Source: a virus. Taken from it: a stretch of 48,402 bases of DNA. The stretch lies in the IMG/VR virus record IMGVR_UViG_3300021378_002465, positions 1 through 48,402 of that record; one strand, 5' to 3'. A model generated the notes under the pieces. The model saw only the letters and a program-made list of their open reading frames with translations, did not search any database and was not told the origin of the DNA. Within the stretch, counting starts at the first letter, position 1; every line of letters begins with the position of its first letter. Below are positions 19,945-48,139 of the stretch, in pieces. Made by a program: the position numbers and the translations under genes.

Positions 19945-20755
19945 ACAGTGTGATATTTTACAAGCCTACTCTGATAGGTTTTCTGTTATAAGAGAAACAT
20001 TTGAAGCAATTAATGAAACAAGTGTTGAAGAAAAAGCAAAACTGCTTCCTGATAACATATCAAAAAAAGTTGAAGATATGCATAATATGCCTACTAGGTC
20101 ATGGCAACATAGGTGGAATATGCCTGCATCAGGTTTGAGTATAGAATATTTTGCAGGACCTGTTGATTGGTGGAACGGTGTTGGTTATGGACATGATAAT
20201 CCAGATACAGTAGTAAATGATCACCTAACAGTTACTAAGATAGATGTATTTCTAGAAAATAAAGGAGCTCAAGATATGGCTATCGAAAATTTTCCAGAGC
20301 TTAGGTATTGGATTAATTTATTAGATGATTATGTGCCAATATTGAGTGAACGATATCAAGATGTAATTGATCAACACGATAATATAATTGACTGGAGACC
20401 GTTTTTAACTTTAATTGAAAATGCCGCTCCCAATGCAACACCAGAAACATATGATGAACAAATGTCATGGCATTCAGAAAAACATGGATGTGATCATGCA
20501 GACGAACTTATAGGAGCATATCATTTAGGAGAAACTCATAGTGGTTTTTATACTAAAGGTGGACCCTATGGTGATATAAAGACATATTATCCAGATCTAT
20601 TAGGTGGTAAAACAAACCATTTATGGACTTGGGGGCAATATGCAGAACTTAGTGGATACACACCTACTATACATGGAGTAGAGTATATTCAAAGAGAACC
20701 AACTAACCGCTATAGTATATTAATAAACTTAGGCGTAAATTACAAGGAGCAATAA
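19934..20755 (+). CDS. 2OG-Fe(II) oxygenase-like protein, tandem copy 3
   Basis: 273 aa from ATG 19934, overlapping copy 2 by 11 nt (GTG 19928 is an alternative). Motifs: [45 protein letters not shown]. Copies 2 and 3 are more alike than either is to copy 1 in the distal motif. The stop overlaps the clpP start by 1 nt, tying the oxygenases to the protease gene in one transcript. Confidence 0.72.
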
Positions 20756-21345
20756 TGTTAGTACCAATGGTAGTCGAACAGACTGGTAGAGGCGAACGTA
20801 GTTATGATATCTATAGTCGTCTTTTAAAGGATAGATTAATTATCCTAAATGGCGTTGTAGATGATAACTCATCTAATCTAATTGTAGCACAAATGCTATT
20901 TTTAGAAAGCCAAAATTCAGAAGAACCAATTAATTTTTATATCAATAGTCCAGGTGGTGTAATTACATCAGGCATGGCAATTTACGATACAATGCAATTT
21001 ATTAACGCACCAGTTCATACTATTGTAATGGGGCAAGCATGTTCAATGGGCAGTTTCCTCGCACAAGCAGGTGAGCCAGGTAAGCGAATGGTATTACCAA
21101 ATAGTAGAACAATGATTCATCAACCTAGCGGTGGTGCTTCTGGTATGCAAAGTGATATTGAAATTCGTTATAAAGAGATTACATATCTTAAACAACGTCT
21201 AACAGAACTGTATGTAAAGCATAATACAAAGGGTAAAACGTATGAAGATTTTGAACGTGATATGGATCGTGATAAATTTATGACTGCTGAAGATGCGGTT
21301 GCATACGGGCTTGCTGACACAGTAATAGAACGCAAACCTGTATAA
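20755..21345 (+). CDS. clpP: ATP-dependent Clp protease proteolytic subunit
   Basis: 196 aa, the usual length of mature ClpP, which forms a double-heptamer chamber capped by ClpX or ClpA. Catalytic triad: Ser97 (GQACSMGSF), His122 (MIHQPSGG) and Asp169 ([10 protein letters not shown]). Oxyanion-hole Gly pair in [10 protein letters not shown]. The N-terminal axial loop ([19 protein letters not shown]) closely follows bacterial ClpP, so docking with an IGF-loop unfoldase should work. clpX lies 3.8 kb downstream on the same strand. No propeptide or inactivating change is visible. Confidence 0.96.
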
Positions 21346-21348
21346 ATA
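21341..21348 (+). promoter_or_regulatory. T4-late-type promoter TATAAATA
   Basis: Exact octamer overlapping the clpP stop codon and ending 5 nt before ATG 21354 (TATAAATACATACATG). No SD is present between it and the start. Confidence 0.45.
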
Positions 21349-21353
21349 CATAC

Positions 21354-22025
21354 ATGAAGATATTAGAAGTAATAAATCCAATTGAAGAAGGACCAAATGA
21401 TCCAGCAATTTTCAAAGCAATATGGACTGCGGGTGGCCCTGGTGCTGGTAAGAGTTTTGTAGTTAGACACTCAGCTCTTGAAGCAATAGGATTTAAAATT
21501 ATCAATAGTGATTCCGCATTTGAGAAATCTATGCAATTAATGGGTATAGATAGCACTCCTGATAATATCGCAAGTCCACAAGGACAAGAGATTCGTAATA
21601 AAGCAAAAGATGTAACTAAGAGACAGCAAGATCTGTATCAAACAGGTAAGCTAGGATTAGTTATTGATGGCACTGGTAAAGACTATGTGAAAATAGCTAG
21701 GCAAGTGCAAAAGGCAAAGTCTGCTGGATATGAATGTGCAATGATATTTGTGAATACAAATTTAGAAACAGCATTAGCACGTAATGAAAAAAGAGACAGA
21801 ACTTTACCTCCAAATATGGTTAAACGTATGTGGAAAGAAGTTCAAGATAATATTGGTAAATTCCAAAGGTTATTTAAAGATGGCATGATCATTGTTGACA
21901 ACAGTGAGGGTGCAAATATCAAGGCAGACACCACGCAAGCATACAAACAGATATCAGCATGGGCAAGCTCTACGCCAACAAATCCAAAGGCAAAAGCCTG
22001 GCTTAATCAATTTGGAAAAAATTAA
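21354..22025 (+). CDS. Zeta-toxin-like P-loop kinase
   Basis: 223 aa. Walker A GGPGAGKSF near residue 32; NSDSAFEKSM after the next strand; VIDGTGKD and an Arg-rich lid (ARNEKRDRTLPPNMVKRMW). This is the order found in zeta-toxin/AAA-type kinases common in T4-like marine phages. Likely phosphorylates a nucleotide, sugar or RNA end; the substrate is not evident. No antitoxin gene is recognisable next to it. Confidence 0.85.
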   Translation: MKILEVINPIEEGPNDPAIFKAIWTAGGPGAGKSFVVRHSALEAIGFKIINSDSAFEKSMQLMGIDSTPDNIASPQGQEIRNKAKDVTKRQQDLYQTGKLGLVIDGTGKDYVKIARQVQKAKSAGYECAMIFVNTNLETALARNEKRDRTLPPNMVKRMWKEVQDNIGKFQRLFKDGMIIVDNSEGANIKADTTQAYKQISAWASSTPTNPKAKAWLNQFGKN

Positions 22026-22028
22026 ATT

Positions 22029-22241
22029 ATGACAGAAACAAATGAATGGTTGTCCAATTGGGCAAGCAACGTACAATATGCGAGTACTGACGAACTATAT
22101 AAAAAGATACTTAATGAAATAGTAGTTCCAAACATTTTTGAAGGTTGCAACATTAGTTACGGAATGACAGAAGATAATGCTTCTGTTGTGCTAAAAGTAA
22201 CAGGTGAGACTAATACTTCTGTAATATTATCTAAGAAATAA
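22029..22241 (+). CDS. Small hypothetical protein
   Basis: 70 aa, acidic N-terminus with Trp (MTETNEWLSNWASNVQY) and a beta-rich end. No family recognised. 3 nt after the kinase gene. A small hairpin (GTTG/CAAC) lies in the 56-nt gap that follows. Confidence 0.65.
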   Translation: MTETNEWLSNWASNVQYASTDELYKKILNEIVVPNIFEGCNISYGMTEDNASVVLKVTGETNTSVILSKK

Positions 22242-22297
22242 GGTAAATATGTATAAGAAAGTTGTTAAGCAACAATTATAAATGAAGGAATGATAAA

Positions 22298-22663
22298 ATG
22301 TATACTTACAAAGCAAAACTATTGAGAATAGTAGATGGTGATACAGTTGATGCGGAGATCGATTTAGGTTTTGGTGTTTTTATGAAACAACGAATTCGCC
22401 TATATGGAATTAATACTCCTGAATCACGAACAAGAGATTTAGAAGAAAAAGAAAGAGGCTTAGCCGCCAAGGCAAGACTCACAGAGATACTTGGGAAAGA
22501 GTTCGTTATTGAAACAATCCTAAACAAACGTGGCAAGTTCGGAAGAATTTTAGGAACGCTACATACCATTGCCAATGAAGAGACAGGCACAGAATCAGTT
22601 AACATTAACAAACAACTTGTTGAAGAGGGACACGCAGTAGAATATTTCGGCGGATCTCGCTAG
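22298..22663 (+). CDS. Staphylococcal-nuclease-like thermonuclease
   Basis: 121 aa, one SNase barrel. VDGDTVDAEIDLGF holds Ca-binding aspartates, RIRLYGINTPESR the first catalytic Arg and Glu, and KRGKFGRILGTL the second Arg. No signal peptide, so it probably acts in the cytoplasm, for example in host nucleic-acid breakdown for nucleotide recycling. Good SD (AAGGAATG). Confidence 0.9.
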   Translation: MYTYKAKLLRIVDGDTVDAEIDLGFGVFMKQRIRLYGINTPESRTRDLEEKERGLAAKARLTEILGKEFVIETILNKRGKFGRILGTLHTIANEETGTESVNINKQLVEEGHAVEYFGGSR

Positions 22664-22670
22664 GAGGCAC

Positions 22671-24713
22671 ATGGCATTAAGAATATTTGGATTTTGGACA
22701 ATTCTTGTCGCTCTGATTATTTCAGGGGTTGCGGCATATTATAGTATTATTGGATTAGTGGCAATTTTTGCCGCGGCCGCAGTACCTATTATTATAATGG
22801 GTGCCGCACTTGAAGTTGGTAAATTAACCACAGCCGTTTGGCTTCATACGTTCTGGGATAGAGCACATTGGGGAATGAAATACTATTTGAGTTTCGCACT
22901 TGTAGTATTAATGTTCATTACTTCAATGGGTATTTTTGGTTTTCTATCTAAAGCACATATTGAACAAACATCAGCTACTGAGGAAAGTGTAGAACAGACT
23001 TCAAGAGTTATAACTGAGATTGCCAGGTTAGAAGCTATTATTGCAAGATCAGAAATTAAAGTTGAGAAACTTGATAATACTGATAACAACCAAGATGCTA
23101 ATATTCAAGCACAAATAGATAAAGAACAAGTACGTATTGACAAAGCATTTGATCGTATTAAACCCGCAGTAGAACAGCAAAACAAAATTATTACAGATGC
23201 TAGAGCAACAGATAATACAAGAACAAAACCATACGAAGATCAGCTTACAAGTATACAAGCAGAAATATTAAGACTGGAAACTAGTGCAAAGGAATACGAA
23301 GGAAAAATCTCAACATTAGGTACTGATAATAGTGGAGTAGAACCTTTACTGGCACAAATAACTGCATTAGAAGATGAGATTATTCGTGTAACTAATCAAC
23401 TACAATCAACAGAGCAAGGACAAGTTAGAGCAGGACAAGCAATTATTGGTGTTACTAGTGATGGCTTATTTGGTGGTAATACTAGAACTGCTCTTGCCAA
23501 ATGGGTATCAGCACAACGTGATAGAATTACACAAATACAAGGTGAAGTAGCAACAGTACGTGCAGATGCAACTAAAACTGTTAAGATGGAACGTTTTCGT
23601 TTAGCGGGTGTTGTTAAAGATATACGTGAAGTACAGATACCTGCACTCAAAGAACGTGAACTTGTAATGTTAGGTAAGATTGACGAAGTACGTCAAACAG
23701 AATCACCTGTTATACAAACTGCAAGAGATGAAATACAACGTCTACGCACAAGTGCAGAAACAGCCGTTGCTAACAGCCAAACATTAATCAATCAACTACG
23801 TAGCCAATTGGGAGACGTAGGAAATACTGAAGTAATTGATGGTGAAATTGCTAAACTTAATACAAAAATAAAAGAAAGCAATGATGAAATTGATAACCTA
23901 ACAGAAGAGAAATATGCGTTACAAGCAGAATTTCGTAAGTTAGAAGCAGAAGTTGGCCCTGTGAAATACATTGCAGAATTTGTATATGGTGAAGCAGATA
24001 AAAACATATTAGAAGAAGCAGTACGTTGGGTTATACTAATACTTGTATTAGTGTTTGATCCATTGGCTGTTGTTTTAGTACTAGGTGGTATTACATTAAT
24101 TAAATGGAAAAAAGAGGGAGATGAAACACCTCCTCCACCACCTACGGAAGAATTACTTTTTGAAGATGTAGATCAAGAAGTTATAGACTTGGAATTTGCA
24201 AAAGAAACTACAGAGGAAGAAGCAGTAGTAATTACTCCAGAAGTAAAAGAACCTGTAGAGGAAGAAAAGGTAGAAGTAAGGCCAGTACCAGTCAAAAAAA
24301 AGGCTAAAAAGATAAAGCCAAAGAAAGAGGAAAAAGTTCCTGAGATCAAGGAAGAAGACAAAACAGATTACGAAGGATTATACGAAGATACACAAGGCTT
24401 CTATACAGTAGATGCATCAGGAGCTCGTAATTATAGTATTGATCCAGATCAAGAGAAGTTAAACAGAAAAGCAAAACAGATACAACAAACACAAAAACAA
24501 ATTGATAAAGTTGTGACAAGAATGAAGGAAGAAGGTAGGTGGCCAAATCCACCAACACCAACAGAGCGTCCTTCACTAGACCAAATCCTGGAAAGCGACA
24601 AGAGTGGTGAGCTAGAAAAATTATTAGATAAAGCAGATGATGATACACTAGCACAAGTATACCAGGCAATCTTATCAGATATGAAAATTCAGCCAAATCG
24701 AAAAAGTGAATAA
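22671..24713 (+). CDS. Large membrane coiled-coil protein
   Basis: 680 aa. Three hydrophobic segments in residues 1-95, a long coiled coil (about 105-440), another membrane span near 450-475 (WVILILVLVFDPLAVVLVLGG), then a Pro/Glu/Lys-rich tail. Inside the coiled coil, TSDGLFGGNTRTALAKWV resembles a peptidoglycan-binding repeat. Equivalent large proteins occur in T4-like marine phages without known function. A role in envelope remodelling or superinfection control is possible (inference). Confidence 0.75.
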   Translation: MALRIFGFWTILVALIISGVAAYYSIIGLVAIFAAAAVPIIIMGAALEVGKLTTAVWLHTFWDRAHWGMKYYLSFALVVLMFITSMGIFGFLSKAHIEQTSATEESVEQTSRVITEIARLEAIIARSEIKVEKLDNTDNNQDANIQAQIDKEQVRIDKAFDRIKPAVEQQNKIITDARATDNTRTKPYEDQLTSIQAEILRLETSAKEYEGKISTLGTDNSGVEPLLAQITALEDEIIRVTNQLQSTEQGQVRAGQAIIGVTSDGLFGGNTRTALAKWVSAQRDRITQIQGEVATVRADATKTVKMERFRLAGVVKDIREVQIPALKERELVMLGKIDEVRQTESPVIQTARDEIQRLRTSAETAVANSQTLINQLRSQLGDVGNTEVIDGEIAKLNTKIKESNDEIDNLTEEKYALQAEFRKLEAEVGPVKYIAEFVYGEADKNILEEAVRWVILILVLVFDPLAVVLVLGGITLIKWKKEGDETPPPPPTEELLFEDVDQEVIDLEFAKETTEEEAVVITPEVKEPVEEEKVEVRPVPVKKKAKKIKPKKEEKVPEIKEEDKTDYEGLYEDTQGFYTVDASGARNYSIDPDQEKLNRKAKQIQQTQKQIDKVVTRMKEEGRWPNPPTPTERPSLDQILESDKSGELEKLLDKADDDTLAQVYQAILSDMKIQPNRKSE

Positions 24714-24717
24714 ACAA

Positions 24718-25155
24718 ATGATAAACGATAACAGCAGTTTCACAGTAACTGCCCCCGATCTATACCTAACAGACGATGGCATTGGAGTACTTATTATTTC
24801 GCAGAATGCGGAATTTGTAACCAAAGTAAAAACAATGATGGAGAAGTATATTATTTCTAGCATCGTCTTTTTTGAAAATGCAAAACCAACTACAGAACAA
24901 AATGTAGCTTGGGAATATTTTGTAAGTAAACAAGCAGATTTAATGATTGTTGACATGGATTCATGTGAATATGCAGATTTACTAGTAGCAATTACGAGAC
25001 CCATTCCAACAGGAAAGTGGACAATATTCGTTAACCAAAAAGGATCTAAACGTGATGCACTAAGAGTAATTAGTGCTGAAGGTAAATACTTTCAGTTTAG
25101 GAACCTTGAGGATATAGAATTGTTTATACAAACCGAGATACAAGGAATAGAATAA
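24718..25155 (+). CDS. Hypothetical protein with receiver-like fold
   Basis: 145 aa from ATG 24718 (an upstream GTG at 24706 overlaps the previous stop). Alternating strands and helices with GVLIISQNAEF, a LMIVDMDSCEY strand ending in Asp, and KWTIFVNQKGS recall a CheY-like alpha/beta domain, but the acidic pocket at strand 1 is missing. Function unknown. Its stop overlaps the clpX start. Confidence 0.65.
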   Translation: MINDNSSFTVTAPDLYLTDDGIGVLIISQNAEFVTKVKTMMEKYIISSIVFFENAKPTTEQNVAWEYFVSKQADLMIVDMDSCEYADLLVAITRPIPTGKWTIFVNQKGSKRDALRVISAEGKYFQFRNLEDIELFIQTEIQGIE

Positions 25156-26366
25156 TGCAAAAGTGCCATTTTTGTGGCAAATCACAGAAGGAAGTATTTA
25201 AACTGTTAGAAGGAATTGACGGAGTACATATTTGTGACTCATGTGTAGACCTTAGTGAAAACTTACTTCGAAAAGAACGTGAAAAGATAGATGTTGATGG
25301 ACAACGTAGAGTTGTTAGAAAAACATTTAAAATACCTGCACCATCTGCAATTAAGCAACATTTAGACATACATGTAATAGGACAGGATAAAGCAAAAAAA
25401 GGTATTGCTGTCGCGGCTTACAATCATTACAAAAGAGTAATCAATACGTCAGATATTCCAATACAGAAAAGCAATATGCTATTTTTAGGCCCAACAGGTG
25501 TTGGTAAAACTCTTATAGCACAAACAGTGGCTAACTATCTTAATGTACCTTTCATTATATCAGATGCAACATCATTAACTGAACAAGGATATATTGGTGA
25601 TGATGTTGAAGTATTAATACACAGATTAGTACAAAAAGCAGACTATGATATAGCAAAAGCTGAAGTAGGTATTATCTATATAGATGAAATAGATAAAAAA
25701 GCAAAACGTAATGATATGGTTTCATTAAGCAGAGATGTTTCTGGTGAAGGTGTACAACAGAGTTTGCTTAAACTATTAGAAGGTTCAGAAGTAAGAGTAC
25801 CTAACTTACCCAAAAGAGTTCCAGAACAATTAACAATTAAAACTGACAATATACTATTTGTTTTAAGTGGTGCATTTGTTGGTATGGATGATATCGTAAG
25901 AGAACGCATGGGTAAAACAAAAATTGGATTTGGTGAACAGAAAAAAGAAGAATTTGATTGGGTGAATAATGTGGAAACAAAAGACCTAATCGCATATGGA
26001 TTAATACCAGAATTTGTAGGAAGATTGCCAAGTGTTAATATATTACACGATTTATCCAGATCTGATCTAATACAAGTCTTGACAAAACCCAAATTTAGTG
26101 TTATAAAACAATATCAGTCTCTTTTTAAGATTGATGGAGTTGATTTAGAATTTAGGAAAGATGCACTTGAAGCTATTGCAGACAAGTGTATAAAACAAAA
26201 AATAGGAGCCAGAGGGCTTCGCAAAATTTTAGAAGAAAGTTTATTGGAGACACAATATGAACTACCAGAATATACAATGAAAGGGATTACTAAAGTGGTA
26301 ATCACTAAAGAAACAATTGACACCCAGAACTCTCCCTGGAAAATTAAGGAGGGTGGAATTGCGTAA
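25155..26366 (+). CDS. clpX: ClpX, ATP-dependent protein unfoldase
   Basis: 403 aa, full length compared with about 420 in bacteria. N-terminal zinc finger with Cys4, Cys7, Cys27, Cys30 (adaptor/substrate recognition). AAA+ module: Walker A GPTGVGKT (112-119), pore loop GYIG (145-148), Walker B IIYIDE (173-178), pore-2 region SGEGVQQSLL, the ClpP-docking loop KIGFGEQ (IGF 257-259) and sensor-2 GARGLRKIL. All parts needed to unfold and feed substrates, including ssrA-tagged ones, are present. It precedes infC with an 8-nt overlap. The phage genome also encodes ClpP and tmRNA. Confidence 0.97.
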   Translation: MQKCHFCGKSQKEVFKLLEGIDGVHICDSCVDLSENLLRKEREKIDVDGQRRVVRKTFKIPAPSAIKQHLDIHVIGQDKAKKGIAVAAYNHYKRVINTSDIPIQKSNMLFLGPTGVGKTLIAQTVANYLNVPFIISDATSLTEQGYIGDDVEVLIHRLVQKADYDIAKAEVGIIYIDEIDKKAKRNDMVSLSRDVSGEGVQQSLLKLLEGSEVRVPNLPKRVPEQLTIKTDNILFVLSGAFVGMDDIVRERMGKTKIGFGEQKKEEFDWVNNVETKDLIAYGLIPEFVGRLPSVNILHDLSRSDLIQVLTKPKFSVIKQYQSLFKIDGVDLEFRKDALEAIADKCIKQKIGARGLRKILEESLLETQYELPEYTMKGITKVVITKETIDTQNSPWKIKEGGIA

Positions 26367-26886
26367 TCAGAGGAACGATAGAAGACGACCAGGAAAGTCA
26401 GTTCATCCACACAACGGAGATATTAGATTCCCCAATGTAAGAGTCACAGATGTAGATGGTGAATCATTATTACTAACTATACAAGAGGCACAACGTTTAG
26501 CAACTAGCAGAGGATTGGATTTAGTATTAATTGCAGAAAAAGCAGATCCTCCAGTGTGTAAGATTACAAGTCTTAATAAATTTTTATATGAACAAAAGCA
26601 GAAAGAAAAAGAGCAAAAGAAAAAGCAACGTGAAAACTTTAAAGATGCTAAAGAAATTCGTATGACTCTCAATATTGAACAACATGATCTAGAAACAAAA
26701 ACACGTAATGCACGTAAGTTTTTAGAAAAGAACTCTACAGTACAGGTAACTGTTACATTAAAAGGTAGAGAAAGAGGAAGGCAAGATGTTGCCAGACAGC
26801 TACTAGCAAAGTTTGCAGAAATGTGTGGAACAACATTAGAAACCGTACACAATAGTGGCGGAAGAATAAGTGGAAAATTAAAATGA
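26359..26886 (+). CDS. infC: Translation initiation factor IF-3
   Basis: 175 aa, about the length of bacterial IF-3 (180 in E. coli). N domain: IRFPNVRVTDVDGESLLLTI, then EAQRLATSRGLDLVLIAEKADPPVCKI, the family signature. A Lys/Gln-rich linker helix (EQKQKEKEQKKKQRE) joins a C domain with KEIRMTLNIEQHDLETKTRNA and VTVTLKGRERGR. IF-3 keeps 30S free and proofreads the start codon. The chosen start is TTG 26359, 6 nt after AGGAGG and overlapping the end of clpX. Non-AUG starts at infC are used for autoregulation in E. coli (AUU). Confidence 0.95.
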   Translation: MRNQRNDRRRPGKSVHPHNGDIRFPNVRVTDVDGESLLLTIQEAQRLATSRGLDLVLIAEKADPPVCKITSLNKFLYEQKQKEKEQKKKQRENFKDAKEIRMTLNIEQHDLETKTRNARKFLEKNSTVQVTVTLKGRERGRQDVARQLLAKFAEMCGTTLETVHNSGGRISGKLK

Positions 26887-27500: not shown

Positions 27501-27514
27501 TTAGATAAATACAC

Positions 27515-27542
27515 TTGACAAACACGTTGTTTGTCGTATAAT
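27515..27542 (+). promoter_or_regulatory. Consensus promoter with spacer palindrome (hsp20)
   Basis: TTGACA (27515-27520), 16-bp spacer, TATAAT (27537-27542). A perfect 7-bp inverted repeat GACAAAC/GTTTGTC (27517-27535) overlaps the -35 and fills the spacer, suggesting repressor control. A late-type GATAAATA lies at 27504. Confidence 0.8.
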
Positions 27543-27604
27543 ATACATATAAGTTTTATTGCCGAAAGGGATAGAATTTATATCTTGCTTAATAGGAGAA
27601 AAAA

Positions 27605-28042
27605 ATGCAAAAATATTTAACAACCCTCGACTTGAATAAGTTGACCCCATACGCAGTAGGATTCGATAGAATCTTTGATGATATGTTCCGCTACGTAGAT
27701 AACTCTTCCAACAGTACTGGATATCCCCCATATAACATTAGGAGCGAAGGCAATCATTATCAGATTGAACTAGCATTAGCAGGCGTTAAGAAGTCTGACC
27801 TAGACGTTAACACGGAGGAAAATAACTTAGTTATTGAACACAATCCAGATGAAGCTGAAGTAGAGAGTGAAAATACTTCCTGGCTACATAGGGGAATTGC
27901 AACACGTAAATTCCGTAGAGTGTTTACACTCGCAGAAGATGTTGTAGTTAATGGCGCAAAACTTGAAGACGGAATGCTTTATATTGATTTAGAGCGTATC
28001 GTTCCAGAAAGCAAAAAGCCAAAATCGATTGACATCAAGTAA
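27605..28042 (+). CDS. hsp20: Hsp20/alpha-crystallin small heat-shock protein
   Basis: 145 aa. N-terminal FDRIFDDMFRYVD as in IbpA-type proteins; alpha-crystallin domain from YNIRSEGNHYQIELALAGVK to a terminal VPESKKPKSIDI tail (the usual xPxxxKPxxI form). It holds unfolded proteins in a refoldable or degradable state. Hsp20 is common in T4-like cyanophages. Here it stands between infC/clpX and clpS, and has its own strong promoter and a 60-nt leader with SD AGGAG. Confidence 0.95.
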   Translation: MQKYLTTLDLNKLTPYAVGFDRIFDDMFRYVDNSSNSTGYPPYNIRSEGNHYQIELALAGVKKSDLDVNTEENNLVIEHNPDEAEVESENTSWLHRGIATRKFRRVFTLAEDVVVNGAKLEDGMLYIDLERIVPESKKPKSIDIK

Positions 28043-28096: not shown

Positions 28097-28396
28097 ATGA
28101 CACAAGTAACCACTACTGAAAAATCGCAAATAGTAAAACTTAGGGCACCTAATAAGTTCCATGTAATTATGTTGAACGATGATGCAACGCCTATGGATTT
28201 TGTTATTAATATTTTAGTTCAGATTTATAATAAATCACCAGAGCAAGCGAAAGAAGTCATGATAGAAATTCATGAAAAAGGGCGTGGTGTAGCAGGCGCA
28301 TTTAGTTACGAAGTAGCTGAACAAAAATGCACAGAGACAGTCACAGTCGCAAGACGACATAACTTCCCACTAGAAGTAACAATAGAAGAATCATAA
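28097..28396 (+). CDS. clpS: ClpS adaptor (N-end rule)
   Basis: 99 aa, typical size. MLNDDATPMDFVINIL carries the Asp-Asp, Thr and Met residues lining the N-degron pocket, and IHEKGRGVAG the conserved His. The C-terminal strand DNA region reads HNFPLEVTIEES, as in bacterial ClpS. It normally hands N-degron substrates to ClpAP and inhibits ssrA-tag degradation by ClpAP. No clpA is present in the window, so it would act on host ClpA or, less likely, the phage ClpX. Confidence 0.95.
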   Translation: MTQVTTTEKSQIVKLRAPNKFHVIMLNDDATPMDFVINILVQIYNKSPEQAKEVMIEIHEKGRGVAGAFSYEVAEQKCTETVTVARRHNFPLEVTIEES

Positions 28397-28957
28397 ATGA
28401 AAATAGCAATCACGCAACGAGTGATTGATTACAAGAATGGGCCGTATGATGCTCTTGATCATGGATTTTATTCCATGTTTAAAGGACACGAACTAATCCC
28501 AATTCCAAATCAACTTAAACATTTCAGATCAACAGCAATCACTGATGCAGACTTAGTCGTGTTCAGTGGTGGCAATAGTATGGTATCAGATGATTGGCAG
28601 TTTAATCATGAGCGACTAAAAGTCGAAAAACATGTATTGGACTTAGCCCTTTCCTATAAAACAAAAATACTGGGTATTAGTAGAGGAACACAATTCCTTA
28701 CAGTAAGTTTTGGTGGATCAATTAAAGCTGATCCAAATCATAAAGAAGATCACATAGTAAAATATAAAGATTCTAACATAACAGTTAGAAGTAGACATAA
28801 TGAAGTTTTAGGATCTGTTCCAGCAGGAGCAACAGTACTAGCAACAGACGCACAAGGCAATCCAGAATCTTGGATGCTTGAACATATAGGTTGTGTACTG
28901 TGGCATCCTGAACGAATGGATAACCATTGGATGCCAGACGAGTTACACTGGTACTAA
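28397..28957 (+). CDS. Class I glutamine amidotransferase-like protein with Cys-to-Ser nucleophile
   Basis: 186 aa. GATase1 architecture: VVFSGGNSM oxyanion region, ILGISRGTQFLTVSFGG nucleophile elbow and CVLWHPERMDN with the His-x-Glu pair. The elbow Cys of the family (GxCxG) is Ser here (GISRG), so glutaminase activity is probably lost or changed. It may have become a hydrolase or a binding protein. It starts directly after clpS (0-nt gap). Confidence 0.8.
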   Translation: MKIAITQRVIDYKNGPYDALDHGFYSMFKGHELIPIPNQLKHFRSTAITDADLVVFSGGNSMVSDDWQFNHERLKVEKHVLDLALSYKTKILGISRGTQFLTVSFGGSIKADPNHKEDHIVKYKDSNITVRSRHNEVLGSVPAGATVLATDAQGNPESWMLEHIGCVLWHPERMDNHWMPDELHWY

Positions 28958-30024: not shown

Positions 30025-30564
30025 ATGAGTATACATGCAATGATAGACCTTGAAACACTAGGTACAAAGCCTGACGCCGTTATTCTTACAATTGGTGGCG
30101 TCAAGTTTAATCCCAATGATATGAGTGAGACACATTCACACTTCTATCATCGATTTGAAGTAGATGAACAACTGATAAAAAAACGCACTACAGAAGAATC
30201 TACACTTGAATGGTGGGGTAAGCAAGACCCTGCGGTAAGAGAAGAAGCGTTAGGTGAGCATAATAGAGAGTCTGTGATGCACATTCTACAAGAACTTAAC
30301 AAGTGGTGCGTTGGAGTACATACTATCTGGACTCAAGGACCTGTATTTGATATTGGCATATTAGAGAATATCTATAGGCAATATGATCATCATGTTCCTT
30401 GGCCCTTTTGGAAAATTAAAGATAGTAGAACACTGTTTGGTATAATGCCAACAGATCCTCGCAAAGAGGTTAAATTCGCGGCACATAATGCACTAGAAGA
30501 TTGTAAAGTACAAGCATTGTGTGTTCAGAAGACACTTAAAAAATTAGGATTAATAGTAAAATGA
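30025..30564 (+). CDS. dexA: DEDD-family 3'-5' exonuclease (DexA-like)
   Basis: 179 aa from ATG 30025 ([14 protein letters not shown]); ATG 30040 is an alternative. Exo [10 protein letters not shown] (Asp, Glu), Exo [15 protein letters not shown] (Asp), Exo [15 protein letters not shown] (His...Asp). This is the RNase T/T4 DexA type of exonuclease that degrades single-stranded DNA or RNA. No SD: the promoter -10 lies 6 nt upstream, consistent with leaderless translation. It overlaps guaC by 4 nt. Confidence 0.88.
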
Positions 30565-31739
30565 GAATTGAAGAAGATATTAAACTAGACTATAAGGATG
30601 TATTGATCCGTCCCAAGCGTAGTACACTGGGTAGTCGTAAAGAAGTAGATCTAGAACGTGGATTTACGTTTCGTAATTACAAATCATACGTATCACCTGA
30701 TGTGTTACCAGATGGATATCCTGTTGTAGAAAAACAAGATAGACACTGGCGTGGTGTTCCCCTTATGGCAAGTAACATGGATGGTGTAGGTACATTTCTA
30801 ATGGCAGATACACTTGCTGAACAAAGTATTTTTACATGCCTTGTTAAAACTTACACTGTTAATGAACTTGTAGGTTACTTTGATAATGATTTTGCAAATA
30901 CTCTCAGACAGGATTATGTTGCAATGAGTATTGGCATCACTGATAGAGATGCACAAAAGTTTCGTGATGTATACGAACAAACAGGTACTGAATTAAAATA
31001 TGTCTGTATTGATGTAGCAAACGGATATAGTGAAAGGTTTTTAAACTTTGTATCAGAGTTTAGAACACAATACCCAAACATAGTAATTATTGCTGGTAAT
31101 GTTGTTACTGGTGATCAAACAGAGGAGTTATTACTAAATGGAGCTGATATTGTTAAAGTGGGCATTGGTCCTGGTAGTGTTTGTACTACTCGCATTAAAA
31201 CTGGCGTCGGTTATCCTCAGCTTTCAGCAGTCATCGAATGTGCCGATGCGGCTCATGGACTCGGTGGCCATATTATCGCTGACGGCGGTTGTACTTGCCC
31301 AGGCGATGTAGCAAAAGCATTTGCAGGCGGAGCAGACTTTGTAATGCTAGGCGGTATGCTTGCTGGACATGATCAAGGCGGTGGTGATATCGTAACCAAA
31401 CATACTGCAACAGGTGGAGCATATAAAACACCTGAAGGAACATTTATCCCACATTTTGAAGAAAGACATTTCGTACAATTTTATGGTATGAGCAGTGATG
31501 CCGCAAACACAAAACACTTTGGTGGCTTAAAAGACTATCGTGCTAGTGAAGGCAGAGAAGTATTGGTTCCATATCGTGGATCAGTTAATGATACAATACA
31601 AGGTATTCTAGGAGGTATGCGTAGTACATGCACGTATGCAGGTGCCCTTAGATTAAAGCATTTGAACAAGTGTACAACATTTATTAGATGTACACAACAA
31701 TTCAATGCAACATATGAAAGCACTACAACAAAACTGTGA
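30561..31739 (+). CDS. guaC: GMP reductase
   Basis: 392 aa TIM-barrel of the IMPDH/GMPR family. Catalytic loop [21 protein letters not shown] with Cys208; [17 protein letters not shown] phosphate site; [16 protein letters not shown] then [15 protein letters not shown] and [14 protein letters not shown], the GuaC-specific tail. No CBS domains, which excludes IMPDH. It reduces GMP to IMP with NADPH, so guanine nucleotides can be redirected to adenine. That would suit an AT-rich genome (inference). About 45 aa longer than E. coli GuaC, mainly near residues 40-65. Confidence 0.95.
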
Positions 31740-37626: not shown

Positions 37627-37703
37627 CTGCTCTTAGCTCAGCTGGATAGAGCAACTGCCTTCTAAGCAGTAGGTCACAGGTTCGAATCCTGTAGAGCAGG
37701 CCA
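37627..37703 (+). tRNA. tRNA-Arg(UCU)
   Basis: 77 nt with CCA. Acceptor CTGCTCT/AGAGCAG; anticodon stem ACTGC/GCAGT, loop CTTCTAA gives UCU (reads AGA, frequent here). Confidence 0.95.
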
Positions 37704-37708
37704 ATATA

Positions 37709-37792
37709 GCCTCCATGGTGGAATAGGTAGACACAACAGACTTAAAATCTGTCGCTTATGGCGTCCCGGTTCGAGTCCGGGTGGAGGCACCA
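37709..37792 (+). tRNA. tRNA-Leu(UAA)
   Basis: 84-nt class II tRNA with CCA. Acceptor GCCTCCA/TGGAGGC; anticodon stem ACAGA/TCTGT, loop CTTAAAA gives UAA (reads UUA). Confidence 0.95.
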
Positions 37793-37798
37793 AAGGAA

Positions 37799-37873
37799 GG
37801 TCGTGTAGTTCAATGGTAGAACCCTCCGCTCATAACGGATCTGTCGTAAGTTCGATTCTTACCGCGACCACCA
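37799..37873 (+). tRNA. tRNA with CAU anticodon (Ile2 or elongator Met)
   Basis: 75 nt with CCA. Acceptor GGTCGTG/CGCGACC (one U-G); loop CTCATAA gives CAU. G1-C72 excludes initiator type. Since the other phage tRNAs read A-ending codons, a lysidine-modified Ile tRNA for AUA is the more likely reading (inference). Confidence 0.9.
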
Positions 37874-40416: not shown

Positions 40417-40421
40417 ACAGA

Positions 40422-43061: not shown

Positions 43062-43071
43062 GAGGTAATTG

Positions 43072-43509: not shown

Positions 43510-43668
43510 TTGAGACGCTCAAGGTTGGGTATAATAGGATTTGGTCATATACAAAGTTCTTGGATATGGACAATGTATGTAGTCAGAGGTAGCAGGCTTA
43601 TTAATATTCCTCTAGTATACCCCCTTTATGTAATTATGAAACAGGTATGGAGAATGAGTCGTGGATAA
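43510..43668 (+). CDS. Possible small hydrophobic protein, TTG start
   Basis: 52 aa ORF filling the gap between two genes (MRRSRLGIIGFGHIQSSWIW..., ending RMSRG). GGAG precedes the TTG, but spacing is short. It overlaps the next gene by 8 nt. Position and fit favour a real gene, though the start codon and composition keep this tentative. Confidence 0.4.
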   Translation: MRRSRLGIIGFGHIQSSWIWTMYVVRGSRLINIPLVYPLYVIMKQVWRMSRG

Positions 43669-43972
43669 ACATGTTTGGAGTGTAACTATTTCAGGTATTA
43701 ATGATTGTGTAGTCTTAGATGATTTTGAAGCGATGCAAGTAAAGATGAAGTTTATGCCAGATATTGAAATGTTTAATATGACTGAACGGCATGGATTAAA
43801 GCCAGAGTTCCTACACAAAGAAGAACGTCAGCAATACTATCCACAAGAACATGAAAATTGGATATGGAATGGCCCATTGCCACAAGCACCATGGAAAAAA
43901 GGTATAGGGCCAGGTCAATTCGGCGGCGCCGCAAAAATGGTCTGGGAATACGAAGATTTAATGGCAATGTAA
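43661..43972 (+). CDS. Hypothetical protein, GTG start
   Basis: 103 aa from GTG 43661 with GGAGAATG 8 nt upstream. N-terminal beta segment (VWSVTISGINDCVVLDD), then a Gln/Pro/Trp-rich tail (NWIWNGPLPQAPWKKGIGPG). No family recognised. Confidence 0.65.
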   Translation: MDKHVWSVTISGINDCVVLDDFEAMQVKMKFMPDIEMFNMTERHGLKPEFLHKEERQQYYPQEHENWIWNGPLPQAPWKKGIGPGQFGGAAKMVWEYEDLMAM

Positions 43973-43982
43973 TCTCTAATTA

Positions 43983-43990
43983 GATAAATA
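43983..43990 (+). promoter_or_regulatory. Late-promoter-like GATAAATA
   Basis: 26 nt before ATG 44017 with SD AAAGGA between. Confidence 0.45.
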
Positions 43991-44016
43991 CCATATCCCA
44001 TAAAAGGAAATATATA

Positions 44017-44388
44017 ATGGAATGGTTGTTATTAGCACTCATGATTAAACATGCAGTGGCAGATTTATTTGTACAAAGTTTTAGAGCGCCTGGCAACAAG
44101 GCGACTTTATTAAGCAAGTCTAACTTGCTTCACAGTGGGGATCATGCAATACTGACAGCCGCTGTAATTGTTGCATTTGGATATACTATACAAACTGCTA
44201 TACTAATGGCAGTTCTAGATTTAGTCCTACATTATACTATTGATGGATCTAAAACAAGATTCATTAAACGTAAAGGATGGAAAAGATCTGGGAAGAAATT
44301 TTGGAGACTACAAGCTCTAGATCAGGCTTTACACTACATTACGTACGGTTTGATCATCTTTTTGGTTGACAATTATGGACTCTTATAG
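44017..44388 (+). CDS. DUF3307-like integral membrane protein
   Basis: 123 aa with three hydrophobic segments and the DUF3307 pattern of polar residues within them: KHAVADLFVQ, HSGDHAILTAAVIV, LHYTIDGSKTRF and ALDQALHYITYGLIIFL. Bacterial and phage members have no firm function. Its last codons contain the -35 of the tmRNA promoter. Confidence 0.8.
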   Translation: MEWLLLALMIKHAVADLFVQSFRAPGNKATLLSKSNLLHSGDHAILTAAVIVAFGYTIQTAILMAVLDLVLHYTIDGSKTRFIKRKGWKRSGKKFWRLQALDQALHYITYGLIIFLVDNYGLL

Positions 44389-44394
44389 TATAAA
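44366..44394 (+). promoter_or_regulatory. tmRNA promoter
   Basis: TTGACA (44366-44371), 17-bp spacer, TATAAA (44389-44394). The -10 is part of TATAAATA (44389-44396), so the site could be read by host sigma70 and by a T4-late-type factor. Confidence 0.75.
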
Positions 44395-44397
44395 TAT

Positions 44398-44695
44398 AGA
44401 TGTTAACGTTGAAGTGACGTAAACATATTCTGGACCTGGGGGCAGTACCCAGCGCCTCCACCATAAGCACACCGTGATAAAAGGTTGCGGTGTTTTTATG
44501 ATGGGGGCGAAAAAGGATCGACAGGTATGGGAGTGAAGTGGAGTTAACCGGATGACTGCGTTATTGGTCAAAAATAATAATTGCAAACGACAATTATAAA
44601 CCTGAGTTAGCCATCGCGGCGTAGAACTCACAGGCCGTAGGGAGCCTCGGAACAGAATCCCTACATTTTTAAATGGCACATTCCGTGCCTTAACT
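44398..44695 (+). ncRNA. ssrA: Circularly permuted (two-piece) transfer-messenger RNA
   Basis: tmRNA frees stalled ribosomes and adds a degradation tag. Acceptor piece first: T arm CTGGG-GGCAGTA-CCCAG (44436-44452), CGCCTCC, A, CCA (44453-44463). An intervening segment with hairpin ACACCG/CGGTGT (44469-44493) follows. Coding piece: GGGGGCG (44503-44509) pairs with CGCCTCC, placing a G-U at position 3-70, the alanine identity pair. Then GGATCGACAGGTATG, and a tag frame 44583-44624 starting GCAAACGAC and encoding ANDNYKPELAIAA-stop. Downstream helices: GTAGGGA/TCCCTAC (44637-44664) and GGCAC/GTGCC (44675-44689). Outer ends are approximate. This permuted order is known from alphaproteobacteria. 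Confidence 0.95.
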
Positions 44696-44710
44696 ATAAG
44701 GAAATAAGTT

Positions 44711-45064
44711 ATGAAAACTATTTTAGTAGCAGGTGCATTAGCACTTATGACTTCTTTTGCGTCAGCAGACACAACTGTAAGTTCACCAGCTGGTATGGAC
44801 ATTAAACCTTACATTGGTTTAGAACGTGCTTTAGAAGCTGAGAAAAATAAATTATACCTAGGTGCAACAACATCATTGGGTGTATTAAATCTTAAAGTCC
44901 AAACCAACGTAGTAGATACTGCGGCGGCATCATGGGCATACACTGGTATGGATTTGGATCTATCCACTAAAGTGTCTGACAATATGGTATTGTTCATGAA
45001 CAATGATATTGACAAAGATTGGAAGCGTTCTGAAACAACAATTGGTGTTAAAGTAAGCTTCTAA
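44711..45064 (+). CDS. Small exported protein (outer-membrane/porin-like)
   Basis: 117 aa. Clear signal peptide (MKTILVAGALALMTSFASA, cleavage before DTTV). The mature part alternates short strands (YIGLERALEAEKNKLYLGAT; LDLSTKVSDNMVLFMNN) and ends in aromatic-terminated IGVKVSF, the C-terminal Phe typical of outer-membrane beta strands. It is too short for a full barrel. It lies 16 nt after the tmRNA and before a terminator, so it probably shares the tmRNA transcript. Confidence 0.75.
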   Translation: MKTILVAGALALMTSFASADTTVSSPAGMDIKPYIGLERALEAEKNKLYLGATTSLGVLNLKVQTNVVDTAAASWAYTGMDLDLSTKVSDNMVLFMNNDIDKDWKRSETTIGVKVSF

Positions 45065-45090
45065 CTGTTTGCACAGTATAATAGCAATTA

Positions 45091-45118
45091 AATCCCCCAT
45101 TATTGGGGGATTTTTTTT
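45091..45118 (+). terminator. Intrinsic terminator
   Basis: AATCCCCCA-TTAT-TGGGGGATT followed by T-run to 45118. It ends the tmRNA/exported-protein unit. Confidence 0.93.
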
Positions 45119-45139
45119 CGAATAAAGTGAATAAAAAGG

Positions 45140-45168
45140 TTGACAAGTAAGGTATCTTACTGTATAGT
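45140..45168 (+). promoter_or_regulatory. Promoter with palindromic operator, copy 3
   Basis: TTGACA (45140-45145), 17-bp spacer with AGTAAG-GTAT-CTTACT (45146-45161), TATAGT (45163-45168). It differs from copies 1 and 2 only in one loop base and in the -10. The upstream AGTGAATAAAAAGG is shared with copy 1. Confidence 0.8.
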
Positions 45169-45194
45169 GTAAGTATAGTTAATAAAGAAAGAAG

Positions 45195-45788
45195 ATGATG
45201 AATAAAACGACAAAAACAATACTCACAGACTGTGATGGTGTAATGCTTAATTGGGAAGCAGGTTTTATAACTTGGATGGCCCAAAAAGGACACAACAAGG
45301 TTGATGCAGATGAGTATGATGTAGCAAAAGCATATGGATTAGAAAAAACGTTTGCTAAAAACCTAGTTAAAGAATTTAACAATAGTGCATGGATGGGACA
45401 TTTACCTGCTCTAAGAGATGCACGAAGCGGTGTTGCTACTCTTGTTGATAACGGTTATACATTTATTTGTATTACTAGTTTAAGTTTAGATGCATATGCT
45501 AAAAAAGCAAGGGTTAAGAACTTGCAAAACATTTTTGGTAAAGATGTGTTTACTGCAAAAAATGTTATTTGTTTGGATACAGGTGCTGATAAAGATGAAG
45601 CCCTAGCTGAATACAAAGACAGCGGGCTATATTGGATTGAAGATAAAACTGAGAATGGTGTACTTGGTAGTGATATGGGATTAAATACACTTCTTATAAA
45701 TCATGGACACAACCAAGATTGTGAGGATTCAAGAATTACAAGAGTAGCTAACTGGGCAGAAATCTCTAATATCGTTCTTAAATCTTAA
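45195..45788 (+). CDS. HAD-family phosphatase, deoxyribonucleotidase-like
   Basis: 197 aa. Motif 1 TILTDCDGVML (DxD nucleophile), motif 2 FICITSLS, motif 3/4 LYWIEDKTENG. The small helical cap (about residues 20-75) is that of 5'(3')-nucleotidase-type HAD enzymes. It likely dephosphorylates nucleotides or a sugar phosphate. ATG 45195 or 45198. Transcribed from operator-promoter copy 3, after the tmRNA terminator. Its stop abuts the convergent phoH. Confidence 0.85.
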   Translation: MMNKTTKTILTDCDGVMLNWEAGFITWMAQKGHNKVDADEYDVAKAYGLEKTFAKNLVKEFNNSAWMGHLPALRDARSGVATLVDNGYTFICITSLSLDAYAKKARVKNLQNIFGKDVFTAKNVICLDTGADKDEALAEYKDSGLYWIEDKTENGVLGSDMGLNTLLINHGHNQDCEDSRITRVANWAEISNIVLKS

Positions 45789-46517
45789 TTATACGTTGTC
45801 GTCTCCGTAAATGTGTAATACTTCTGTAACTGCAGGATGTCTTTCGACATCTTGTTTTTCAAACTCTACAAGTCCAAACATTTTTGAACTAGATACTTTT
45901 AGTAGTTTGATAAATCCTTTAAGGCCATTATCCTCGTACCCCCTATCATGTTGGTTTAGGTCACCTGTAACTACGATGCGAGAATTATCACCAATACGAG
46001 TTAATAACATTTTCATTTGGTTAGGTGTTGCATTTTGCATTTCATCTGCAATAATCCAAGCATTTTTAAATGTTCTACCTCGCATATAAGCAAGTGGTGC
46101 AATTTCGATGACACCGTCAGCAACCATTCCTTCTATTTGTTGTGGAGTCCAATACTCCTCAAATACGTCAAATATAGGTCTGGTCCATGGAGCCATTTTT
46201 TCTACAAGTGTTCCTGGTAAGAATCCGTGTTGTTCGTCAACACTTACAGCAGGTCGTGTAACAATAATCTTCTCACATTTACCAGTGCGTAGGTCTCTGA
46301 TTGCAGACAGTACACCCAGAAGGGTTTTACCGGTTCCTGCAGGACCCATTGCAAATACTATGTGTTTGGATATGTTGTCAAGTAGATCGATGTAATCCTC
46401 CTGACGAAGATTCTTAGGAATAATTGTAACATGTTTTTCCCTAGATCTAAATGCGTTTAATTGTATGACATCACCCTGATGTTGTTGGTTTTTTGTTTTA
46501 CGAGCTCTTTTAGCCAT
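45789..46517 (-). CDS. phoH: PhoH-like ATPase
   Basis: 242 aa. Walker A GPAGTGKTL, IIVTRPAVSVDEQHGFLPG, Walker B AWIIADEMQN and VVTGDLNQHD, all PhoH hallmarks. The N-terminal 30 residues are basic and Gln-rich. PhoH is widespread in marine phages; proposed roles are RNA metabolism and phosphate-stress response, but biochemistry is limited. SD TAGGAG; a GGTAAATA element lies about 50 nt upstream on the minus strand. Confidence 0.95.
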   Translation of the reverse strand: MAKRARKTKNQQHQGDVIQLNAFRSREKHVTIIPKNLRQEDYIDLLDNISKHIVFAMGPAGTGKTLLGVLSAIRDLRTGKCEKIIVTRPAVSVDEQHGFLPGTLVEKMAPWTRPIFDVFEEYWTPQQIEGMVADGVIEIAPLAYMRGRTFKNAWIIADEMQNATPNQMKMLLTRIGDNSRIVVTGDLNQHDRGYEDNGLKGFIKLLKVSSSKMFGLVEFEKQDVERHPAVTEVLHIYGDDNV

Positions 46518-46611
46518 TGCTTCTCCTATCTTATGTTAAAGCCCAGTTAGCTATCTCGTATATGTATTTACCATAGAAAACCTGATTTAACAACTAGTAG
46601 AACTCGTTTTA

Positions 46612-46619
46612 GATAAATA
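46612..46619 (+). promoter_or_regulatory. Late-promoter-like GATAAATA
   Basis: 23 nt before ATG 46643 with SD AGAGGAA between; probably drives the run of genes through infA. Confidence 0.5.
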
Positions 46620-46642
46620 ATATTACAGAGGAATAATAAATT

Positions 46643-47158
46643 ATGGATCAATTAGAAATAATGAAATCGTTGGATTCCAACGTAAGTCGTAAATCAGCTT
46701 TAGATGTATTGATGCAGGTTGATGAATACTTGGAAGCCCTTAACATATATGCATACCCTAACTGGTTTAGTGGTGAAATTGTAGATGGACCACGTATTGA
46801 AAAATACTGGGTAACAGTTACATTAATGTATCCACGTAAAATGATGCCAGATCCTGCAGGTGCAGAGCGTATTATAGCATCAGGTGGTAAAGTTTATTAT
46901 GCAGAAGATAGTTTAATTTCAGCGGCAAAACTTGTTGACCCAGAAGATAGAGCAGAAGTAGCAGATCCTAGGAGACCAGGACAGAATACTGCTAAAAAGG
47001 TAAAACGTCCTATTTGGCTAGTTACTTTGGAAATTCCAAAACAATACATGGACACTGTTACTGCTGATAGATTAGCAGTAGATGATAATAACATTGATTT
47101 GGATAAAACAGAAAAAGCTCAAACTACAGAAATAGAGGGTGGCGATGAATTTGAATAA
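46643..47158 (+). CDS. Conserved T4-like marine phage protein
   Basis: 171 aa. Central beta-rich segment (YPNWFSGEIVDGPRIEKYWV, then TVTLMYPRKMMPDP) and an acidic tail. I associate this pattern with hypothetical proteins conserved in T4-like cyanophages, function unknown. It overlaps the next gene by 14 nt. Confidence 0.75.
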   Translation: MDQLEIMKSLDSNVSRKSALDVLMQVDEYLEALNIYAYPNWFSGEIVDGPRIEKYWVTVTLMYPRKMMPDPAGAERIIASGGKVYYAEDSLISAAKLVDPEDRAEVADPRRPGQNTAKKVKRPIWLVTLEIPKQYMDTVTADRLAVDDNNIDLDKTEKAQTTEIEGGDEFE

Positions 47159-47921
47159 AGAAACAAGGGTGCAAACAATACCTACGTTCTCAGAAAAAAA
47201 GAACGAGTTGGATACTGACGACACAATCGCAGGCTTTAACCCTAAAACACAATATGCTATTAAAAAATTAAAAGCAAAATATCCACAAGCAGACAATTTA
47301 CTTAGTGCGTTACTTGCTGATGTTGAAAAAAATGAAGATGATGATGATGCAAGACATGGCCAAAATAAAAAACATATACAGGACTTAGAGAAAAGGTTAC
47401 TAGATGTTATCCGTAAAAATGGATTAAAGGAAGAAGCAATGATTGTTGAAAGTTTAAAAGAAAATGATTTACGTGGACTTGTTTCACCAAGCATTACTAT
47501 TGATCAGTATAAGTCAAAATTAGGTAAAGATGAAAAAATTATTGTTGCAGGATTTCGTGTTAAAGACCAAGATCCAGCAAAAGACCTAAGTCAGTTTATT
47601 GAAAGTTCATTGCAAGATGATATTTTAGATGTAGATGTCTCGCCAGGACCAAATGCAGATGGTGAATATACAGTATTTGTAGAAGTTCCTAGACATAGTA
47701 ATGCATATGACGTATTGGAAACTATTGTTAATGATATTACAAAAGTTGATAATGACTTTTTAGATGTTAATTTCGCGGCATATGAAAACAAAAACCCACA
47801 ACCTTTTAATAGAGATAACTTTGCAAAGAGCGTTATAGTAGACGCAAGAGATTATCAATTACAACATAATCCAGAAGCAAAAGCAATATCTGAAAGAATG
47901 AAGTTTTTAACTAGGTATTAA
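47145..47921 (+). CDS. Conserved phage protein, possibly virion-associated
   Basis: 258 aa from ATG 47145 (GAGGGTGG SD); GTG 47139 is an alternative. N-terminal helical charged region ([20 protein letters not shown]), C-terminal alpha/beta domain ([20 protein letters not shown]...). The stop overlaps the infA start by 1 nt. No enzymatic motif. A late gene by promoter context. Confidence 0.7.
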
Positions 47922-48139
47922 TGGCCAAGGAAGAATCTCTCAAGTTAAAAGGCAGTGTAACTCAGCTTTTACCCAATGCTCAATTCAAAGTACAACTTGA
48001 AGTTGGAAATGAAATAATATGTACAATAAGTGGTAAAATACGTAGGCATAATATTAATATACTATTAGGTGATGAGGTAGATGTTGAAATGAGCCACTAT
48101 GATCTTACTAAAGGTCGTATAACATATAGGTACAAATAA
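47921..48139 (+). CDS. infA: Translation initiation factor IF-1
   Basis: 72 aa, exactly the length of E. coli IF-1. [20 protein letters not shown] matches the MAKED...xGxVxExLPN opening. [20 protein letters not shown] matches HISGKMRKNYIRILTGDKV, including the basic residues that contact 16S rRNA in the A site. It ends [15 protein letters not shown], as in the YDLxKGRIxxR family end. A single S1/OB fold. It is embedded among phage genes with 1-nt overlaps on both sides, so it is not contaminating host sequence. The same phage carries IF-3. Confidence 0.96.

Follow-up and report, generated by a model that had tools for sequence, protein, structure and literature searches.

Viruses that carry both a tagging RNA and a protease to go with it raise the question of whether the two work together. 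The viral sequence analyzed here (IMG/VR record IMGVR_UViG_3300021378_002465, positions 1 to 48,402; the whole 48-kb stretch is called the window below) encodes ClpP, ClpX, ClpS, the small heat-shock protein Hsp20, the initiation factors IF-3 and IF-1, and a transfer-messenger RNA (tmRNA) with its own tag. The original prediction joined these genes in one circuit, in which the phage tmRNA would tag stalled proteins and the phage ClpX would recognize the tag and feed the tagged proteins to ClpP, so that their amino acids are recycled. We found all 7 genes where they had been placed (Table 1), and the interpretation built on them was partly supported. The evidence supports genes that are real, phage-owned, and conserved and selected together, and the core of the circuit, the reading of the phage tag by the phage ClpX, is contradicted at the residue level in the clade of phages to which the window belongs. 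Co-occurrence of these genes is by itself already known from jumbo phages; what is new is a ClpX without its tag-reading parts.

Tag-reading residues of ClpX are altered throughout the clade

Structures and mutants have shown that the residues Y153/V154, T199/V202, and R228/H230 of Escherichia coli ClpX recognize the terminal Ala-Ala of the ssrA tag (PMC7652416). The Michaelis constant (KM) rises at least 50-fold in the R228A mutant, from 1.3 to 140–240 μM in H230A, and to 6.3 in T199S (PMC7652416). We aligned 81 bacterial ClpX proteins, in a sample that was not specifically alphaproteobacterial, with 81 other phage ClpX proteins and the relatives of the window protein. V154 was invariant in both reference sets (81/81 each), T199 was T in 81/81 bacterial and 78/81 other phage proteins, and R228 and K229 were kept in 81/81 and 80/81, respectively, with H or N at position 230. 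The clade was represented by 59 rows (some loci were fetched twice), from which 30 representatives were taken at 95% identity. In all 30, V154 is replaced by A (I in the window), T199 is replaced by S, and the RKH motif is lost. Instead of GGRKHPQQEF, the clade usually has VPNKPxxNPEKV, a loop that is 3 to 4 residues shorter in most members. The C4 zinc finger, K125, Y153, E185, V202, the IGF loop, R307, and R370 are kept in 30/30. The clade therefore shares the zinc finger, the AAA+ motifs, the IGF loop, and the ClpP triad with E. coli ClpXP, whereas of the tag readers it keeps only Y153 and V202.

The window protein is a ClpX by profile, passing the cut-offs of both PRK05342 (504 bits, cut-off 359) and TIGR00382 (473 bits, cut-off 371). 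At the ssrA-reading set (V154, T199, R228, and H230) it has V154I, T199S, and a shortened non-RKH loop. The motif set first read in this protein held for the zinc finger, the Walker A and B motifs, and the IGF loop, but the pore loop is GYIG and not GYVG, and the RKH motif is absent. The predicted structure had a predicted local distance difference test score (pLDDT) of 77.6 and resolved the pore loops and the IGF loop poorly.

Clade rows were first sorted by their loops, and the grouping was then checked without them. Matches at least 54% identical to the ClpX of locus L083 all had changed loops, and matches of the RKH type were at most 51% identical to it. When the loop columns were left out of the tree, 16 clade members fell on a single branch with a Shimodaira–Hasegawa-like approximate likelihood-ratio test (SH-aLRT) support of 100 and a stem of 1.04 changes per site. 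Because the identity gap and the loop-free tree give the same group, the grouping is independent of the loops. Between close clade members, the ratio of nonsynonymous to synonymous substitution rates (dN/dS) was 0.07–0.18 for ClpX, 0.02–0.15 for ClpP, 0.04–0.21 for ClpS, and 0.12–0.31 for IF-3; the module is kept by purifying selection. With dN/dS low and the replacement loop conserved, decay of the loop was ruled out, and the change looks like adaptation under constraint. Divergent phage ClpX-like proteins that lack RKH and have loops of other kinds were also found (L342, L343, L346, L347, L349, L350, and L353), so phages may have lost tag reading on more than one occasion.

The tmRNA tags are the same beside both types of ClpX

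The window tmRNA gene scored 124.7 bits with RF01849 and 119.7 bits with RF04321. Its CCA-ending acceptor piece precedes the coding piece, whose 5′ end lies at 44503. This permuted order, together with complete acceptor pairing, the G3:U70 pair, an Ala resume codon, and a tag followed by a stop codon, identifies it as a two-piece tmRNA of the alphaproteobacterial type and suggests an alphaproteobacterial source. The tmRNA and its own tag, ANDNYKPELAIAA, had been recognized correctly at the outset, without mention of the permuted two-piece type. Tags read with ARAGORN from 25 clade tmRNAs all end in Ala-Ala (13 ALAA, 8 AIAA, 3 AMAA, and 1 ALAA with a double stop). The acceptor stems pair fully in 25/25, with G3:U70 and compensatory changes at inner pairs; in L359–L361 the acceptor strand is GGGGTTG, with G3:U70.

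The identical tag ANNNYAPEMALAA occurs with a canonical ClpX in G034 and with the clade ClpX in G043 and G052. Co-change of tag and ClpX was ruled out by this presence of the same tag beside both ClpX types. Because the tags are unchanged while ClpX has changed, the tag would be meant for a reader other than the phage ClpX, and the simplest reading is that it is addressed to host ClpXP/ClpAP or to a phage ClpA.

Two further observations concern phage tmRNA genes. In L100 (G017 near 86411–86814), ARAGORN detected a tRNA with a CTA (amber-reading) anticodon at 3070–3145, adjoining a permuted tmRNA. Weak partial matches to permuted tmRNA (22.7 bits, model positions 36–95), perhaps remnants or strongly diverged genes, were found in G063, G064, and G071 (L384, L383, and L382).

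Table 1. Positions of the analyzed features in the window
Feature	Position	Strand	Remarks
clpP	20755..21345	+	196 aa; triad S97/H122/D173; made without propeptide
Membrane protein	22671-24713		Homologues 64–80% identical in L261–L267
(beta/alpha)5 protein	24706..25155	+	149 aa; stop codon overlaps clpX start
clpX	25155..26366	+	403 aa; zinc finger, Walker A/B, arginine residues, and IGF loop intact
ClpX pore-1 loop GYIG	25587..25598	+	GYVG in bacteria, GYAG in rest of clade
ClpX pore-2 loop SLSRDVS	25722..25742	+	Bacterial S-I-T199-R-D-V202-S; T199S here
ClpX short loop VPNLPKRVPEQ	25797..25829	+	Stands where ssrA-reading RKH loop would be
ClpX IGF loop	25923..25931	+	ClpP docking; residues 257-259
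infC (IF-3)	26359..26886	+	Probable TTG start; AAGGAGG at 26346-26352; longest open reading frame from 26317
hsp20	27605..28042	+	IbpA/B-like small heat-shock protein
clpS	28097..28396	+	N-degron pocket N34 D35 D36 T38 M40 H66 and E79/K84 kept (E. coli numbers)
tmRNA gene, permuted two-piece	44370..44715	+	ARAGORN; Rfam RF01849 match 44357-44667
tmRNA 3′ acceptor strand	44453..44463	+	CGCCTCCA + CCA
tmRNA 5′ acceptor strand GGGGGCG	44503..44509	+	Pairs with 3′ strand, giving G3:U70 alanine identity pair
tmRNA tag frame	44583..44624	+	ANDNYKPELAIAA and stop
infA (IF-1)	47921..48139	+	72 aa
Membrane open reading frame	48139..48402	+	Runs off window end; lies between IF-1 and ClpA in lineage-mates

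Co-occurrence and order of the genes in other phages

We surveyed 50 viral records, nearly all picked for a ClpX or IF-3 relative, so that the counts are conditional on that bait. ClpS was present in 46 of them, Hsp20 in 46, IF-3 in 36, ClpP in 29 (above cut-off), the permuted tmRNA in 27, and IF-1 in 12. SmpB was found in 0/50, which implies that rescue depends on the host. All 7 parts occur together in 7 records (the window, G002, G033, G066, G075, G076, and the isolate Sinorhizobium phage Phosso, PV764938). Most of about 80 loci share the order ORF-clpX-infC-hsp20-clpS (ORF, open reading frame), and almost all clade contigs long enough to show it have clpP a few kb upstream of clpX. A chimeric contig, which had been named among the findings that would overturn the kit, was excluded, since the same order is repeated across dozens of independent contigs and the isolate Phosso holds the set. 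The IF-1 and IF-3 genes are rarely found together outside the window's clade. G011, G019, G024, G026, and their kin (L018, L036, L044, and L048) have IF-1 and ClpA with no IF-3 in the record, and a peptide-deformylase-like ORF directly precedes ClpA in G011 and G026.

The novelty originally seen in the mere togetherness of the genes did not hold, because most or all of the parts are already in Atu_ph07 (PMC6102473), AP-J-162 (PMC11242549), and the Phosso record. Phosso has ClpP (in two copies), ClpX directly before IF-3, ClpS, ClpA, Hsp20, IF-1, and a permuted tmRNA; it differs in its soil rhizobial host and in its ClpX, which keeps the GYVG, T199, and R-K (with N at H230) lost in the window clade. 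AP-J-162, also of a soil rhizobial host, is reported to have a tmRNA, 6 Clp ORFs, clpX beside IF-3, and Hsp20 (PMC11242549). For the Agrobacterium phage Atu_ph07, ClpX, ClpA, ClpB, ClpP, and ClpS have been listed (PMC6102473). It resembles the window in having clpX directly before infC, ClpA, ClpS, ClpP, Hsp20, and a related virion protein, but a tmRNA and IF-1 were searched for and not found, and its ClpX keeps Y-V and R-K. The jumbo myophage PA5oct of Pseudomonas shares hsp20 before clpS, ClpP, a ClpA-like protein, and a related virion protein; IF-3, IF-1, and a permuted tmRNA were searched for in it and not found. The Methylophilales phage Melnitz, for which a two-piece tmRNA and an amino-acid-recycling hypothesis have been published (PMC9004378), is likewise a marine myophage with a permuted alphaproteobacterial-type tmRNA, but it has no ClpP, ClpS, ClpA, IF-3, or IF-1. 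A further difference is that no Rfam riboswitch match adjoins the window tmRNA. Phage-borne initiation and ribosome-rescue factors (IF1, IF3, tmRNA, and SmpB) have also been described in huge phages (PMC7162821); these include SmpB, unlike the records surveyed here, and Clp proteins are unmentioned in the main text of that paper.

ClpS most likely serves ClpA

The ClpS protein scored 99 with Pfam (cut-off 23) and under every NCBIfam ClpS cut-off, and it keeps the ClpA-binding E79/K84 surface. Full-length ClpA-like proteins were present in 16/49 records of the ClpX-baited set and in 18/40 clade records. ClpA is their best family, though under the strict cut-off; in the sequences read, the pore loops KYRG and GYVG are conserved, as is an IGF/VGF loop. 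The genes of G002 and G045 run PhoH, two virion proteins, IF-1, a small membrane ORF, a lipoprotein, DnaJ, and ClpA. The series from PhoH through both virion proteins to IF-1 is also present in the window, which ends inside the membrane ORF, the product of which is 75% identical to its counterpart in G070 (L394) and 47–52% identical to those in G002, G045, and G050. Because the window order matches that of G002 and G045, we expect DnaJ and ClpA shortly beyond the window, ClpA approximately 1–2 kb past its end. A role of ClpS as a partner of ClpX only was ruled out, since lineage-mates encode ClpA. ClpS, initially grouped with ClpX, is an adaptor of ClpA and most likely serves ClpA and not ClpX.

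The phage ClpXP is probably directed at substrates other than tmRNA-tagged proteins

We infer activities and substrates from the genes, their order and co-occurrence, purifying selection, the residue changes, tag conservation, and tmRNA pairing. The explanation that fits these data best, and that we consider probable, is that the ClpXP of this jumbo-phage lineage has been re-aimed at substrates other than tmRNA-tagged proteins. Several points weigh against it. The window ClpX is the mildest case in the clade (V154I, T199S, and K-R still in the loop), so it may bind the tag residually, and an SspB-type adaptor of the host could hold tagged proteins at the ClpX zinc-binding domain. In ClpP, Y60 of the docking cleft is N throughout the clade. 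ClpA lies outside the window sequence, and synteny is what places it in this phage. Finally, most of the surveyed records are incomplete fragments, which makes the absence counts soft. The originally proposed circuit draws on the presence of tmRNA, ClpX, and ClpP in one genome, on the Ala-Ala end of the tag, and on the IGF loop, and its recycling step had already been proposed for the tmRNA of Melnitz (PMC9004378) and is thus not new. We judge it unlikely, because all clade members have altered tag-reading loops but unchanged tags and because the parts are separable, Melnitz having the tmRNA without ClpP, ClpS, ClpA, IF-3, or IF-1.

Alternatively, the phage ClpX could be a non-proteolytic chaperone in replication or virion assembly. 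Such a role has been proposed for Atu_ph07 (PMC6102473) and for jumbo phages generally (PMC7824862), and ClpP was not seen in many ClpX-bearing contigs; the nearby clpP of nearly every sufficiently long clade contig and the invariant IGF loop make this reading distinctly improbable. The clpP product might also be a head-maturation protease and not a Clp peptidase, as the PHROGs label on its best matches has it. We regard this as very improbable, since the protein passed the ClpP subfamily model PRK00277 (295 bits, cut-off 249) and scored 98 bits with the head-maturation model (cut-off 120). It failed the stricter TIGR00493 (275.5 bits, cut-off 308.6), and it retains the axial N-terminal segment (LVPMV..RGER) and, besides Y60, the hydrophobic cleft residues. 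Of the catalytic triad first assigned to it, S97 and H122 stand, and D169 gives way to D173, which aligns with D171 of E. coli. Resemblance to bacterial housekeeping genes would fit genes that are transient cargo from the host, or artefacts of assembly, with no function in the phage; the low dN/dS, the conserved order, and the presence in isolates already contradict this idea, to which we give almost no credence.

If ClpXP is indeed re-aimed, the system could work as follows. Phage ClpX would dock on phage ClpP via the IGF loop, as this loop and the ClpP axial segment suggest (with caution owing to Y60N), and feed substrates to it. With the ssrA-reading loops replaced once in the clade, ClpXP would act mainly on other proteins, of the phage or of the host, which an adaptor may deliver. 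The two-piece tmRNA, with host SmpB, AlaRS, and EF-Tu, would free stalled ribosomes and add tags ending in Ala-Ala, readable by host ClpXP/ClpAP and probably by the phage ClpA of lineage-mates. ClpS would pass N-degron substrates to ClpA, so that ClpA-ClpS-ClpP breaks down proteins with N-degrons and perhaps those with tags, Hsp20 (with DnaJ in lineage-mates) may hold unfolded proteins, and IF-3 and IF-1 may support or bias initiation during infection.

A more specific version, which we offer tentatively, is a private degron code. A widespread clade of marine jumbo phages would have swapped the ClpX tag-reading loops for a conserved VPN-x-x-x-x-x-PE loop, with no change to docking or motor. 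This ClpX, perhaps supplied with substrates by the (beta/alpha)5 protein that is coupled to clpX, could serve the selective destruction of proteins of the host or the phage, and ordinary tagged and N-degron substrates would be left to the phage tmRNA and ClpA/ClpS. An ORF related to that of the (beta/alpha)5 protein lies before clpX throughout the clade, and many other phages have one there as well. The predicted structure is a confident (beta/alpha)5 fold, the best structural matches of which are nucleoside-deoxyribosyltransferase-like, with receivers and pseudo-receivers weaker. A receiver adaptor of the CpdR/RssB type was rejected because the protein lacks the acidic pair that follows strand 1 and matches to Response_reg (Pfam) are weak (5/27, best 0.005). 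With its ambiguous fold matches, the protein is only a lead as a candidate ClpX partner or substrate adaptor.

Initiation factors, Hsp20, and phage lineage

Both initiation factors passed their profiles (IF-3, TIGR00168, 139 bits, cut-off 60; IF-1, TIGR00008, 100 bits, cut-off 61), and Hsp20 scored 67.7 with Pfam (cut-off 20.8). The infC gene probably starts at the TTG at 26359, which overlaps the clpX stop; because this start is preceded by AAGGAGG and overlaps the stop, clpX and infC look translationally coupled. Ordinary Shine-Dalgarno sites precede 32/58 ORFs, against 8% of background ATGs. Unusual initiation signals that could explain the presence of IF-3 and IF-1 were not seen among them, and the bias of initiation attributed to the phage factors is not shown by these sites.

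The window is 48 kb long and clade contigs reach 184–222 kb. It is a fragment of a large marine myophage, probably of more than 200 kb, whose widespread lineage has Atu_ph07, Phosso, and RaK2 as distant relatives; virion proteins and the clpX-infC and hsp20-clpS neighbourhoods are common to the window and the Atu_ph07/RaK2-like jumbo phages. The pelagimyophage identity first considered was ruled out. Nucleotide similarity and a gene set in common with HTVC008M, Mosig, or Melnitz were examined with a negative outcome: no pelagimyophage was among the best near-DNA matches (which were to nrdB and tRNA only), and the Clp and IF set is missing from the pelagimyophage-like Melnitz.

Other genes of the window were also noted. 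Directly downstream of the clpX-clpS module, and accompanying it across most of the clade, lie genes for a class I glutamine-amidotransferase-like protein (28397–28957) and an IMPDH/GMP-reductase-like protein (30561–31739), both named from sequence alone. Positions 15860–16723 encode a short class II (D/K/N) aminoacyl-tRNA-synthetase-like catalytic domain (PHROG 29758) with no match to an anticodon-binding domain. The 7 tRNA genes form two clusters (6836–7748 and 37627–37873); the Arg(TCT)-Leu pair resembles cyanophage pairs at the DNA level, and the Arg tRNA resembles those of T4-like Acinetobacter phages. Membrane proteins 64–80% identical to the 22671–24713 product occur in L262 (G047), L267 (G048), L261, and L263–L266. 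No ClpX or IF-3 match was found in the stretch fetched for L261–L267; L262 and L267 still have Hsp20-ClpS, with no AAA match in the ClpA search.

Significance of the altered ClpX

These results correct the assumption that a tmRNA and a ClpX in one phage genome must work together. They need not do so. The altered ClpX points to phage-targeted degradation of host proteins. Because the tag readers of ClpX are nearly invariant in the bacteria sampled, a large viral clade in which they are replaced, but motor and ClpP dock are kept, is a natural experiment on substrate choice by AAA+ proteases.

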